Shown: piece after piece, positions 12,695 through 24,628 of the stretch
How the letters are laid out: each line of letters starts with the position of its first letter
Numbering within the stretch: the first letter of the stretch is position 1
NCBI GenBank assembly: GCA_944390395.1
Contig: CALXPY010000005.1
Location: 1 to 49,826 of the forward strand
DNA from: an uncultured Clostridia bacterium
Lineage (GTDB): Bacteria > Bacillota > Clostridia > TANB77 > CAG-508
Length of the DNA stretch: 49,826 nt
Direction: 5' to 3'
Program-made: the position numbers and the translations under genes
Notes under the pieces: model-generated
Told to the model about the DNA's origin: nothing
Databases searched by the model: none
What the model saw: only the letters and a program-made list of their open reading frames with translations

Positions 12695-14383
12695 TTAATA
12701 CTTTATATACAAAGCTGCTCTATATCCAATATCATCAGAAATATTTCCTTCTCCGACTAATTGTCTTTTTGCCATATAGTCGTCAGCTCCTTTTTGATAA
12801 AATTTTCCTCCTCTTACTACATTGCTATTATTACTCTTTTCCATTGTATATTCTGAAACATTTCCTGCTATATCATATATACTATTTATTCTCCATTTGT
12901 CACTATATCCTGTTTCTTCTTTAGTATTTGGTAGACATGTATAGTCAATATGGTGTTCATTTCTCTTTGTGTAATATGCTAAATAAAATTCTTCATCCAT
13001 CTTTAAATCAGCTACTTTTTTTAATAATGAATTATTATTTTTTGCATAACCATCAAAGAAGCTATCATCAAAAACTATCTCATCTTCATATCCTTCCCAT
13101 GGATTATCTTTTGAAAAATCTGGTTGAACATTGGCTGCTTGCAAAGCATCGACTGCAATTAAAATTTCTGATTTCAAATCATCCAATGTACAATTTACAT
13201 TGTTTTTTATTTTTAAATTAAAATTTAATTCTTCATCTGTATCTAGTACTTTTGTATAGTAATAATATCTACCTTTTTTAATAAGGTCATTTCCTTCTAA
13301 TGTTATATCATTTATAATATCATCATTATCTTTTCTTCCTAATCCCACTCTTATATATGCTTTTACACTACTTTCACTCACCTTTACATTTAATTTTAAA
13401 TTCAATGTTTCTTCATAAGATGGTACTGTTTTTATTAGATTTTCTTCGGAAGAGTTATCTATTGTACTAATAATATCTATATCTCCCCCAAGAAATGCTT
13501 TTTCTATTGGATAGTTATAACTTACCCTATTTATATCTGCAAGATATTTATTTATATTATTATAATTCTGTGCAATACTTATTCCTGCTGTATTTCTATT
13601 AAAATCACTATAGTTTCCATAGTTTGTACTATTTTTTACATCTGTAGTTTTTTCTATATATTTCATTGCACTATCCCATTGTCTTCCATATACCATTGTT
13701 GATGTCGCTCCATAGTTTTGATTATCTTCTGTGTACATGCTTCTAGCATTATTCATTGCATTTTCCATTGTTATATTTGTTTCCGGTTCATAACCTTGCT
13801 TTGATACTGCTTTTCCTCCATCATTTCCTACTTCATATCTACCTATGAAAAATCCACCATAAGTTAATATACTTTCTTCTATCTTTTTTATTTCTTCTTT
13901 TGATTTTTCATCTATTTCTTCTGTATAACTATTACTACTTCCTTCATAATCTTCTCTTTCATAATTATCTACTGGTATCCATACAAATTGATCTCTTGTT
14001 TTTCTTGCTTCTTCCACATTTGCATCTGTTATTTCGTCTAAACCTTCATATATTACCCAACCTTCTGAAACTCTATCTTCTCCCGTAGCTTTTGATGGCG
14101 TAAAACCAAAAGGTATTGGTACTTTCTCTCCATCTGGATCTTCTTCTATATGTACATAATCATTATCTTCTTCTCCAAACATATCATCTAACAAATTTTC
14201 TAATTTATTGTAATCATCATCTAAAGAATTATTCATTACATTTGCTGCCTCTTGTGCTTTCCCTATTATCCCATTATCACTTAATACTACTGATATTGTT
14301 ATTGCTGCTAATATTAATAATACTACTATAGTTATTGCCAATGCAATTAGCGTTATTCCTCTTTTTTCTTTTATTTCCTTCAT
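12695..14383 (-). CDS. Pilin-like N-terminus fused to SUMF1/FGE-like domain (copy A)
   Basis: A 562-residue protein. Residues 1-45 form a type IV prepilin-like signal: short basic leader, then GITLIALAITIVVLLILAA, with cleavage expected after the Gly. The Glu usually at position 5 of mature pilins is absent. The middle holds EDPDGEKVPIPFGF and QFVWIPVDNYER, and a beta-rich insert (about 290-420). The C-terminal part has YDIAGNVSEYTME, VVRGGKFY and IGYRAALYI, typical of SUMF1/FGE-sulfatase (C-type-lectin-like) folds. It is probably a surface protein. GAGGAGAG ribosome site. It is paralogous to the gene at 22922 and carries the same leader. Function is unknown. Confidence 0.8.
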   Translation of the reverse strand: MKEIKEKRGITLIALAITIVVLLILAAITISVVLSDNGIIGKAQEAANVMNNSLDDDYNKLENLLDDMFGEEDNDYVHIEEDPDGEKVPIPFGFTPSKATGEDRVSEGWVIYEGLDEITDANVEEARKTRDQFVWIPVDNYEREDYEGSSNSYTEEIDEKSKEEIKKIEESILTYGGFFIGRYEVGNDGGKAVSKQGYEPETNITMENAMNNARSMYTEDNQNYGATSTMVYGRQWDSAMKYIEKTTDVKNSTNYGNYSDFNRNTAGISIAQNYNNINKYLADINRVSYNYPIEKAFLGGDIDIISTIDNSSEENLIKTVPSYEETLNLKLNVKVSESSVKAYIRVGLGRKDNDDIINDITLEGNDLIKKGRYYYYTKVLDTDEELNFNLKIKNNVNCTLDDLKSEILIAVDALQAANVQPDFSKDNPWEGYEDEIVFDDSFFDGYAKNNNSLLKKVADLKMDEEFYLAYYTKRNEHHIDYTCLPNTKEETGYSDKWRINSIYDIAGNVSEYTMEKSNNSNVVRGGKFYQKGADDYMAKRQLVGEGNISDDIGYRAALYIKY

Positions 14384-14499
14384 AAGTTGAATCTCTCCTC
14401 TTTCTTATTAATTTTAAATTTATTCCCACAATATGTAATAATATCTTTTTTCTTTCAAATATATCCACTAGTAAAATGTTTTGAAAAAAGCGCACAAAA

Positions 14500-14529
14500 A
14501 GAACGTCTCCTATTTATAAGAAACGTTCT
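14500..14529 (-). terminator. Leader terminator hairpin, copy A
   Basis: On the minus strand AGAACGUUUC pairs with GAGACGUUCU: 10 bp including one G-U pair, possible only for minus-strand RNA. A UUUUUGUGCG tract follows. It lies 49 bases after the leader ORF stop and 117 bases before the pilin-like start codon. Confidence 0.75.
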
Positions 14530-14578
14530 ATATTTTACATAATACATTTGAAATTTAGGTACAAAAACTAAACCTGTT

Positions 14579-14644
14579 TTATTCTCTAAAACATAGCTCT
14601 CTCTCTCTCTCTCTCTCTACAACGGCAACGCTTTCAGCTCTCAT
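14579..14644 (-). CDS. Leader peptide with Glu-Arg repeat encoded by (AG)11, copy A
   Basis: A 21-residue ORF: MRAESVAVV, then ERERERE, then LCFRE and a TAA stop. It starts at ATG 14644 behind AAAAGGAGAT with about 9 bases of spacing, inside a leader whose promoter is at 14677-14705. The repeat is a pure AG dinucleotide run, so replication slippage would change the frame. With one more AG unit (or two fewer) the frame stays open through the terminator hairpin and stops at 14455-14457. Whether the peptide itself matters is unknown. It is conserved in position and length in copy B. Confidence 0.6.
   Translation of the reverse strand: MRAESVAVVERERERELCFRE
14597..14618 (-). repeat. (AG)11 dinucleotide microsatellite, copy A
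   Basis: Eleven perfect AG units on the minus strand (CT on plus) inside the leader ORF. Copy B also has exactly eleven. No other simple dinucleotide run of this length was seen in the window. Confidence 0.95.
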
Positions 14645-14676
14645 CTTTATGTTATCTCCTTTTCATTTCTAACAAG

Positions 14677-14705
14677 ATAATACTATATTTTTATATTTTA
14701 AGCAA
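14677..14705 (-). promoter_or_regulatory. Promoter of leader copy A
   Basis: On the minus strand TTGCTT, 17 bases, TATTAT, placed about 33 bases before the leader ORF start and 55 bases after the EAL gene stop codon. Confidence 0.6.
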
Positions 14706-22921: not shown

Positions 22922-24112
22922 TCACAAATATAATGCTATTCTGAATCCAATGTTTCCTACTTTTTCATATCTTGTTTGTCCTGAATCGACAATTCTTTCA
23001 ATTCCTGTTACGGGTATTACACAATCTCGTGCCGAAGATGTAAATTGTACTCCTCTATAAAATCTACAATTTGTCATTCCGAATCCTGTTCTTGTTTCCA
23101 TTGTCCATTCCATTACATTTCCTCCTAAATCATATATATTTTTTATTGAATAATTAGAATTTGAACCAGTTACTGCTAGCTTGCCTGTAAAATTTCCTTT
23201 TCCTCTTGAAGTTGCAACAAAACTTGTACTACTACATGTACTAGTTTTGTATTTTGGGTCTATAAATGCCATTATAGCATCCCATTGTACACCATATACC
23301 AAACAACTTTTTACATTATATCCTTTTTTTCCAGTATACATTTCTCGAGATTTTTGCACTGCACCGCCTAATTGATTAGTTGTTTCTTCTGTATCAGCCC
23401 AACCTATATAATTATAAACATAAGCACCTTGTTTTATTACAACTTCTTCATCTACTCCATACGATTGTTCTGTCCTTTCCATATTTGATTTTATTCCAGC
23501 CTCATATCTTCCTATGTAAAATCCCTTATTATTATATACACTTTGTATCATATCTGAATATTCTCTTCTTTCTTCCTCTGTTGCATAACTGCTAGGTTCT
23601 TCTGAAATTGTAAGAACATCAAAAGAATTTAAACTTCCATCAAAATAATTATTATATCTCTTAAACTCACTTTTATTTTCTACTGGTATCCATACAAACT
23701 GATTTCCTAATAAAATTTTTGCTATTTCATGATTAATCCCTTTATTTTTATCTTCTACATTATCAGATATTACAACACCTTCACTTTTTGTTCCACCAAC
23801 ATAATAAAATCCAGCTGGTATTGGAACTCCATCTTCTGTATATGTTAAATCCAAATTTTCTTCTGGTATCTCTATATTACTATTCCAATTTGAATCCATT
23901 GTTTCATTTAACTCATTCAAGAGTTCATTTAATTCTGTTTCATCTTCTTTTACTAAATTATTCATTCTATCTGCTGCCTCTTTTGATTTATTCAATATTC
24001 CATTTTCTCCTAAGGTTACATCTAACGTTACTCCTGCCAATATTAAAATCACTACTATTGTTACTGCTAAAGTTATTAGTGTTATTCCTCTATTTTCTTT
24101 TTTACTATTCAT
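22922..24112 (-). CDS. Pilin-like N-terminus fused to SUMF1/FGE-like domain (copy B)
   Basis: 396 residues. N-terminal basic leader, then GITLITLAVTIVVILILAGV, a prepilin-like signal; after a charged helix the SUMF1/FGE-like domain begins near EDGVPIPAGFYYVGG. Recognisable blocks are QFVWIPVENKSEF, GFYIGRYEAG, CLVYGVQWDAIMAFI, YDLGGNVMEWTMETR, FYRGVQF and IGFRIALYL at the end. It is shorter than copy A because it lacks the beta-rich insert. GGGAGAAAT ribosome site. It is separated from its leader by two unusual inverted repeats. Likely surface-exposed; ligand unknown. Confidence 0.8.
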   Translation of the reverse strand: MNSKKENRGITLITLAVTIVVILILAGVTLDVTLGENGILNKSKEAADRMNNLVKEDETELNELLNELNETMDSNWNSNIEIPEENLDLTYTEDGVPIPAGFYYVGGTKSEGVVISDNVEDKNKGINHEIAKILLGNQFVWIPVENKSEFKRYNNYFDGSLNSFDVLTISEEPSSYATEEERREYSDMIQSVYNNKGFYIGRYEAGIKSNMERTEQSYGVDEEVVIKQGAYVYNYIGWADTEETTNQLGGAVQKSREMYTGKKGYNVKSCLVYGVQWDAIMAFIDPKYKTSTCSSTSFVATSRGKGNFTGKLAVTGSNSNYSIKNIYDLGGNVMEWTMETRTGFGMTNCRFYRGVQFTSSARDCVIPVTGIERIVDSGQTRYEKVGNIGFRIALYL

Positions 24113-24146: not shown

Positions 24147-24217
24147 GAACTTTCCTCAATAGTGATAATATGTTTTTTCTCGCTTAGAAAAAAATATTAT
24201 CACTATTGTGGAAGTTC
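24147..24217. repeat. Long near-perfect hairpin upstream of pilin-like copy B
   Basis: Arms of 32-34 bases sharing CAATAGTGATAATAT with ATATTATCACTATTG at the core, extended by GAACTT/AAGTTC outside and a T/A run inside, around a 5-base loop (CGCTT). It lies 35 bases before the start codon. There is no clear T-tract on the minus strand, so it is not a typical terminator. It is absent from copy A. Confidence 0.85.
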
Positions 24218-24297: not shown

Positions 24298-24413
24298 GAA
24301 GCGTGTTATATATATTATTTGAAAAATCATGAGTCGACAGCCCTTTGAGGCGGGGGTGTGACCCGTGAGCTTGGAGACCGTGTTTTTGAAAATAATATAT
24401 ATAACTTAGCTTC
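24298..24413. repeat. GC-rich structured island with paired AT-rich arms
   Basis: Outer arms GAAGC/GCTTC, then GTTATATATATTATTT paired perfectly with AAATAATATATATAAC, then AAAAA/TTTTT and CATG/CGTG (a U-G pair on plus-strand RNA). They enclose about 50 bases of high GC, including GGGTGTGACCC. The interior of 69 bases is about 54% G+C in otherwise very AT-rich DNA. It sits in the extra DNA that copy B has between leader and gene. It may be a small structured RNA or a miniature mobile element; I cannot assign it. Confidence 0.7.
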
Positions 24414-24483
24414 TATAGTACTTAGAAAGTAAAAAACTTCATATATATCCACTAGTAAAATCTTTTGAAAAAAGCGCACAAAA

Positions 24484-24513
24484 AGAACGCATCCAAAAAA
24501 TGCGATACGTTCT
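24484..24513 (-). terminator. Leader terminator hairpin, copy B
   Basis: On the minus strand AGAACGUAUC pairs with GAUGCGUUCU (10 bp, one G-U), followed by UUUUUGUGCG. Compared with copy A, base pair 8 is A-U here and U-G there, and pair 7 is U-G here and U-A there. Confidence 0.75.
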
Positions 24514-24562
24514 GAATTTTACATAATATATTTTAGATTTAGGTACGAAAAATAAACCTGTT

Positions 24563-24628
24563 TTATTCTCTAAAACATAGCTCTCTCTCTCTCTCTCTCT
24601 CTACAACGGCAACGGTTTTAGCTTTCAT
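24563..24628 (-). CDS. Leader peptide with Glu-Arg repeat encoded by (AG)11, copy B
   Basis: A 21-residue ORF: MKAKTVAVV, ERERERE, LCFRE, stop. It is the same length and repeat as copy A; the three amino-acid differences all lie in the first five residues. The ATG at 24628 has only a weak ribosome site (GAAAG), though an in-frame GTG further up follows AAAGGAT. One extra AG would open the frame through the terminator to a stop just past it, as in copy A. Confidence 0.55.
   Translation of the reverse strand: MKAKTVAVVERERERELCFRE
24581..24602 (-). repeat. (AG)11 dinucleotide microsatellite, copy B
   Basis: Eleven perfect AG units on the minus strand, the same count as copy A, within the leader ORF. 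Confidence 0.95.

Follow-up and report, generated by a model that had tools for sequence, protein, structure and literature searches.

The window, by which we mean the whole 49,826-nt stretch of DNA analyzed here from an uncultured Clostridia bacterium, carries on its minus strand a short leader ORF containing an AG dinucleotide run, an intrinsic terminator, and a pilin-like gene. The whole arrangement is duplicated at 24628-22922, and the features of both copies are as follows.

14656..14659, minus strand: GGAG, a Shine-Dalgarno-like motif 11 nt upstream of the leader ATG
14579..14644, minus strand: short (putative OFF) leader ORF of copy 1, having 21 codons and a stop codon when n = 11 (in silico repeat simulation)
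14597..14618, minus strand: (AG)11 dinucleotide run of copy 1, inside the leader ORF
14455..14644, minus strand: long (putative ON) leader frame of copy 1 with n = 9, 12 or 15, crossing the terminator and stopping at 14457-14455
14496..14529, minus strand: intrinsic terminator of copy 1, with a 13-bp stem, a loop of 4 and a T tract (terminator scan and fold)
12695..14383, minus strand: pilin-like gene, 562 aa, with its own RBS and a prepilin-like N-terminus, GITLIALAITIVVLLILA
24563..24628, minus strand: short (putative OFF) leader ORF of copy 2 (repeat simulation)
24581..24602, minus strand: (AG)11 run of copy 2, near-identical to copy 1
24439..24628, minus strand: long (putative ON) leader frame of copy 2 (repeat simulation)
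24480..24513, minus strand: terminator of copy 2 (fold -14.2 kcal/mol, z = -5.4)
22922..24112, minus strand: pilin-like gene following copy 2, 396 aa

Most of what a preliminary description of copy 1 had listed was recovered, and every number it gave proved accurate. The 21-codon leader ORF, with its ATG at 14644, is exactly as described, as is the (AG)11 run that it holds, and the proposed ribosome site corresponds to the GGAG motif. The stem lies at 14529-14500 and is followed by the T tract, the distance between the 11-unit stop codon and the stem was again measured as 49 nt, and this strong terminator is followed by the pilin-like ORF beginning at 14383. The weakest point of the description is its promoter, as a scan of the region upstream of the 14644 leader yielded no consensus promoter match. 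Weak promoter-like matches were found by a scan of the window between the terminator and the pilin gene. A terminator scan identified one terminator compared to 0.0 +/- 0.1 in shuffled sequences, and its fold has an energy of -15 kcal/mol (z = -6.8). The stem begins about 115 nt after the leader ATG. Even (AG)6 would be expected only 0.01 times in the window and is present only within the two near-identical (AG)11 runs. An Rfam search of the window found no cis-regulatory RNA family at gathering score, and the sister species orthologues of the neighboring GGDEF-EAL gene have no leader alongside.

We simulated the leader in silico with n = 8 to 15 repeat units. With n = 8, 11 or 14, translation would stop at 14581-14579, and with n = 10 or 13 at 14588-14586, whereas n = 9, 12 or 15 creates an ORF of 61-65 aa that continues past both the stem and the T tract. 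The simulation therefore agrees with the earlier claim that 9 or 12 units open the frame through the stem and that 10 or 13 stop it at once; only when n is divisible by 3 can the leader be read without a stop up to the terminator and across it. The pilin ATG is located at 14383, by which point the long leader frame has already ended, and so the run lies outside of the pilin coding sequence.

The Pfam family assignment of the 562-aa pilin-like protein is weak (N_methyl, E = 0.087) and a structure prediction for the pilin-like protein was poor, with a mean pLDDT of 44.9 and only the N-terminal helices usable. The C-terminal parts of the proteins encoded at 12695-14383 and 22922-24112 contain the pattern GNV.EWT ... 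RGG ... R..LY, which looks like a formylglycine-enzyme/C-type-lectin-like fold, and a Pfam search of both C-terminal parts gave no match. Two palindromes were also observed near copy 2. A 99-bp palindromic repeat with a GC-rich core, TTATATATATTATTT ... AAATAATATATATAA, is found at 24306-24405 on the minus strand and sits between the leader and the pilin gene in many copies of this genome. Its core is reversed in the leader copy L041, suggesting an element that is MITE-like or can invert. Another palindrome, CAATAGTGATAATATTTTTTTC ... ATATTATCACTATTG, lies at 24155-24210 and has relatives in both orientations ahead of other pilin-like genes of the genome.

When the leader was used as a query against the window's own genome (1.44 Mb in 72 contigs), a total of 41 matching places were identified, among which 33 leaders have readable runs and 31 have an uninterrupted, countable run. 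Several copies are either truncated at contig ends or decayed. Contigs C4, C9, C13, C27, C43, C44, C45, and C48 of this genome (G000) all end inside leaders or within about 100 nt of them; thus, the assembly breaks at these sequences, and there are probably more copies than were counted. A promoter-like motif (TTGACN-N15-19-TANNNW) precedes 19 of 32 leaders and a Shine-Dalgarno-like motif precedes 29 of the 32. Nearly all leaders with a readable downstream gene (19/21) are followed by genes encoding a prepilin-like N-terminus (GITLIALAVTIVVILILAG), while L042 and L048 precede other membrane-anchored proteins. Two pairs of leaders appear to be mosaics: L041 and L054 are identical upstream of the run but not downstream, and L047 and L053 are identical downstream but not upstream. 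This suggests that the leader may serve as a recombination joint at which genes and promoters are exchanged.

The 31 countable runs contain 8 (2 runs), 11 (23), 12 (1), 13 (3), 14 (1), or 15 (1) units, such that n = 2 mod 3 in 26/31 copies. The run of 12 units is at C16:19575 of G000. Lengths of the putative OFF class account for 29 of the 31 runs, compared to an expectation of two thirds (P = 5e-4). Several closely matched pairs differ in repeat number. L041 and L054 have 13 and 8 units despite 100 nt of identical upstream sequence, L047 and L053 have 11 and 13 units despite 250 nt of identical downstream sequence, and near-identical loci of two sister species (98% in both flanks) have 11 units, out of frame, versus 13, in the pilin frame. 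From these near-identical flanks, we conclude that the tract changes faster than its surroundings. Among relatives, repeat number ranges from 7 to 27, which counters the possibility, raised in the preliminary description as grounds for its rejection, that length is fixed. It is possible that the excess of n = 11 reflects homogenization by recombination between leaders, basal read-through via -2 slippage, or a tract equilibrium.

The features conserved between leader copies are the openness of the long frame and the hairpin. Each of the 26 unique full-length copies has a through-frame that can be read without interruption from the run, across the hairpin, as far as a conserved stop, encoding about 63 aa and ending in FTSGYI or FTSGYV. 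Within the variable half of these copies, there are no stop codons in the through-frame, as compared to 51 and 42 in the other two frames and 45 +/- 6 in shuffled sequences (minimum 25). Even the hypervariable hairpin loop contains no through-frame stops versus 10.4 expected. The leaders differ in length only by whole codons (141 or 144 nt). Purifying selection upon the long-frame peptide was tested for and not found, as the frequencies of synonymous and non-synonymous changes are close to those of an unconstrained sequence. The whole-codon length differences together with near-neutral amino acid changes argue that openness is maintained rather than the peptide sequence, which is what one would expect if translation of the frame matters and its product does not. 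The terminator stem is paired in 94.6% of cells across the copies, and compensatory changes are in excess, with 28 double-change cells versus 14.9 in shuffles (0/500). One stem position, for example, is A-U in 16 copies, U-A in 7, U-G in 2, and G-U in 1.

Of 30 genomes from the genus, 16 contain AG runs of at least seven units followed by two pyrimidines, while the reversed control gave zero matches everywhere. A stricter pattern applied across the order was found in 7 of 33 genera, all belonging to the window's family, and was absent from four other families. The named carriers of the DNA pattern (the run and the bases following it) are uncultured gut Clostridia, and judging by the isolate prefix Lapin, many derive from rabbit samples. 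A tblastn-type scan of named genomes with the leader peptide of the window's genome found no relative, whereas the DNA pattern did, and the leaders of relatives encode unrelated peptides of 15-99 aa. Two architectures were observed. In one, which is found in sister species, the run falls within the opening codons of the pilin-like gene, which is ordinary in-gene phase variation, and these runs are a mixture of in-frame and out-of-frame lengths. In the other architecture, the run is located in a separate short ORF ahead of a terminator, as it is in the window. Thus, the earlier proposal that the repeat lies outside of its target gene is borne out for this genome but is not a strict rule, as the run is also found within the pilin gene in sister species.

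The leader-terminator geometry is also preserved in other gut Clostridia, in dozens of leaders whose sequences have diverged. We surveyed 90 loci with a detected hairpin, representing 17 leader clusters from different genomes. Their long frame ends in the late 5' arm, the loop, or the 3' arm of the hairpin at 52 of the 90 loci and beyond the hairpin at 37, whereas the putative OFF frames stop a median of 50 nt ahead of it. A small number of loci seemed to deviate, but in these either the script had chosen the wrong hairpin or the stop fell within the 5' arm, and loci first scored as lacking a hairpin have longer or interrupted hairpins with matching geometry, as judged by eye. The combined probability that long-frame openness arose by chance is 2.5e-4 for the 17 clusters and 4e-6 for nine hand-picked representatives; both values allow for choosing the longest of three frames, as the shuffle test repeats this choice. 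In two of the leaders (L192 and L217), a second short repeat, (AC)6-7, is present downstream of the AG run and is possibly a second slippage site. Leaders L119, L120, L122, and L123 (G019) have a long frame whose end overlaps what appears to be a TTG start codon of the pilin-like gene (AGTTGA), so that antitermination could be supplemented by translational coupling. Elsewhere, for L130 and L135 (G014) as well as L114 and L115 (G015), the gene following the leader-attenuator layout encodes a membrane-anchored protein that is not a pilin and that weakly matches the Listeria-Bacteroides repeat (Flg_new, E = 0.015), which shows that the module is not restricted to pilins.

Taken together, we consider it very probable that this locus is a phase-variable, translation-coupled transcription attenuator. 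Ribosome-mediated antitermination set by repeat number, as had been proposed for copy 1, is strongly supported by the comparative anatomy of both this genome and its relatives. Slippage within the AG run would alter n and therefore the frame of the leader. If n is not divisible by 3, the ribosome would leave 49-56 nt before the hairpin, RNA polymerase would terminate, and the gene would be off; if n is divisible by 3, the trailing ribosome would cover the 5' arm, the hairpin would be blocked, and the pilin-like gene would be transcribed. With each locus switching independently, the result would be combinatorial surface variation. Some observations do speak against the attenuator reading: the two OFF classes should be equivalent, yet n = 2 mod 3 dominates; weak promoter-like matches follow the terminator; and in E. 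coli, a terminator lying less than 100 bp into a coding region may still function (PMC4824070), to be set against the approximately 115 nt between ATG and stem here. We would propose a broader scenario only tentatively and regard it as possible but rather doubtful, namely a whole repertoire of about thirty surface genes, each governed by its own frame-switched attenuator, with in-gene phase variation as the evolutionary source (or the outcome) of these attenuators and with the leader also serving as a joint for exchanging promoter halves and gene halves, thereby combining ON/OFF switching with cassette shuffling.

The predominance of n = 11 (23/31) might instead be a product of decoding slippage rather than DNA change, in which case n = 11 would be the working form and a -2 ribosomal shift (or transcript slippage) on (AG)11 would set a basal level of read-through. 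Reasoning from the sequence, a -2 shift on an AG repeat would re-pair both tRNAs and enter the open frame, and this would also accommodate the conservation of the long frame even though most copies have n = 11. We nevertheless find this improbable, because lengths vary widely between loci and species, ON-class lengths included, and because the in-gene runs of the sister species mix in-frame and out-of-frame lengths. The same long frame, being an ORF of about 63 aa with a shared ending in 26 unique copies, could also be taken to encode a small phase-variable protein as the actual product, with the hairpin merely its transcript end. However, a terminator inside of the ORF would yield terminated mRNAs without a stop codon, the amino acid changes look near neutral, and the unrelated peptides of the relatives also count against this explanation, which makes it very unlikely. 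For want of purifying selection on the peptide, we abandoned it in favor of frame openness.

It is similarly hard to credit that repeat length acts through promoter spacing, mRNA stability, or Rho-dependent polarity rather than an intrinsic hairpin. Early stops can cause polarity, but the run is inside an ORF downstream of the promoter, and conservation is seen in the hairpin and in where it lies with respect to the long-frame stop. The least credible explanation, to which we assign almost no weight, is that the leader is simply a dispersed repeat (a decayed element) with no regulatory role. The leader does exist in many copies, several of which are truncated at contig ends or decayed, but the open frame, the compensating stem changes, the location ahead of pilin-like genes in 19 of 21 copies examined, and a geometry shared with unrelated leaders all speak against this.

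The E. coli pyrBI attenuator senses UTP, and as envisioned for our attenuator reading, a ribosome translating into its terminator prevents termination, except that the control input here would be a mutable repeat. The C. difficile cwpV gene likewise has a phase-variable terminator in its leader region, but it is switched by DNA inversion, not repeat slippage. Out-of-frame repeats near the 5' end are shared with both Neisseria opa and the in-gene AG form of the sister species, the latter of which also has a pilin-like product; unlike such in-gene phase variation, the repeat here is in a separate leader ORF that ends before the pilin gene. M. gallisepticum vlhA is also a large surface gene family with a repeat run for each member, but its GAA repeats are in the promoter region (PMC6258824), whereas the AG run is inside a translated-type ORF, with promoter-like sites upstream of 19/32 leaders. 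In E. coli, terminators exhibit full termination when the stop codon is >27 nt upstream and strong repression of termination when only a few nt separate the two; insertion of one G, which shifted the stop from 28 to 5 bp upstream, reduced termination from about 90% to under 10% (PMC4824070). These distance effects agree with the attenuator reading.

The preliminary description knew of no system that works in this way, but S. gallolyticus pil1 and pil3 do, as these exhibit leader-peptide phase variation by attenuation using GCAGA repeats (Danne et al. 2014, PMC3894217). The low-expression stop in S. gallolyticus is reported to precede the terminator by 49 bp (39 bp in the model figure), while longer leader peptides that end in or past the terminator result in high expression (PMC3894217). 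The design was tested with mutants and chloramphenicol, deletion of one hairpin arm resulted in constitutive expression, and the plasmid-borne module was still functional in L. lactis (PMC3894217). Therefore, coupling sufficient for such attenuation exists in Bacillota. The window's leaders share with pil1/pil3 short repeats in a leader ORF having its own start and RBS, an OFF stop well upstream (at least 28 nt; 49 nt in the window) of an intrinsic terminator, an alternative frame ending within or beyond the hairpin (here only one of the two alternatives), and a downstream surface or pilus gene with its own start, with ribosome-mediated antitermination proposed for both. They differ in unit (AG rather than GCAGA), in having one ON frame of three rather than two, in having about 30 dispersed loci rather than 2, in their host (gut Clostridia rather than Streptococcus), and in preceding single pilin-like genes rather than LPXTG-sortase pilus operons. 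The AG leaders would thus work like pil1, with no sign of homology. We found no clostridial or dinucleotide example of such an attenuator in the open-access literature. Relative to pil1/pil3, what is new is the dinucleotide unit, the single ON frame, the scale of the family, the group of hosts, and the fact that leader and in-gene forms coexist.

If this reading is correct, a mechanism described for two pilus operons in one Streptococcus would become a strategy in wide use among uncultured gut Clostridia, each small genome having dozens of switches that act independently. The leaders vary naturally in stop position, hairpin, and repeat length and could thus be used to measure transcription-translation coupling in Clostridia, and the leader and in-gene forms are visible side by side. 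Furthermore, a class of genes that looks silent in assemblies may in fact be on in a minority of cells.
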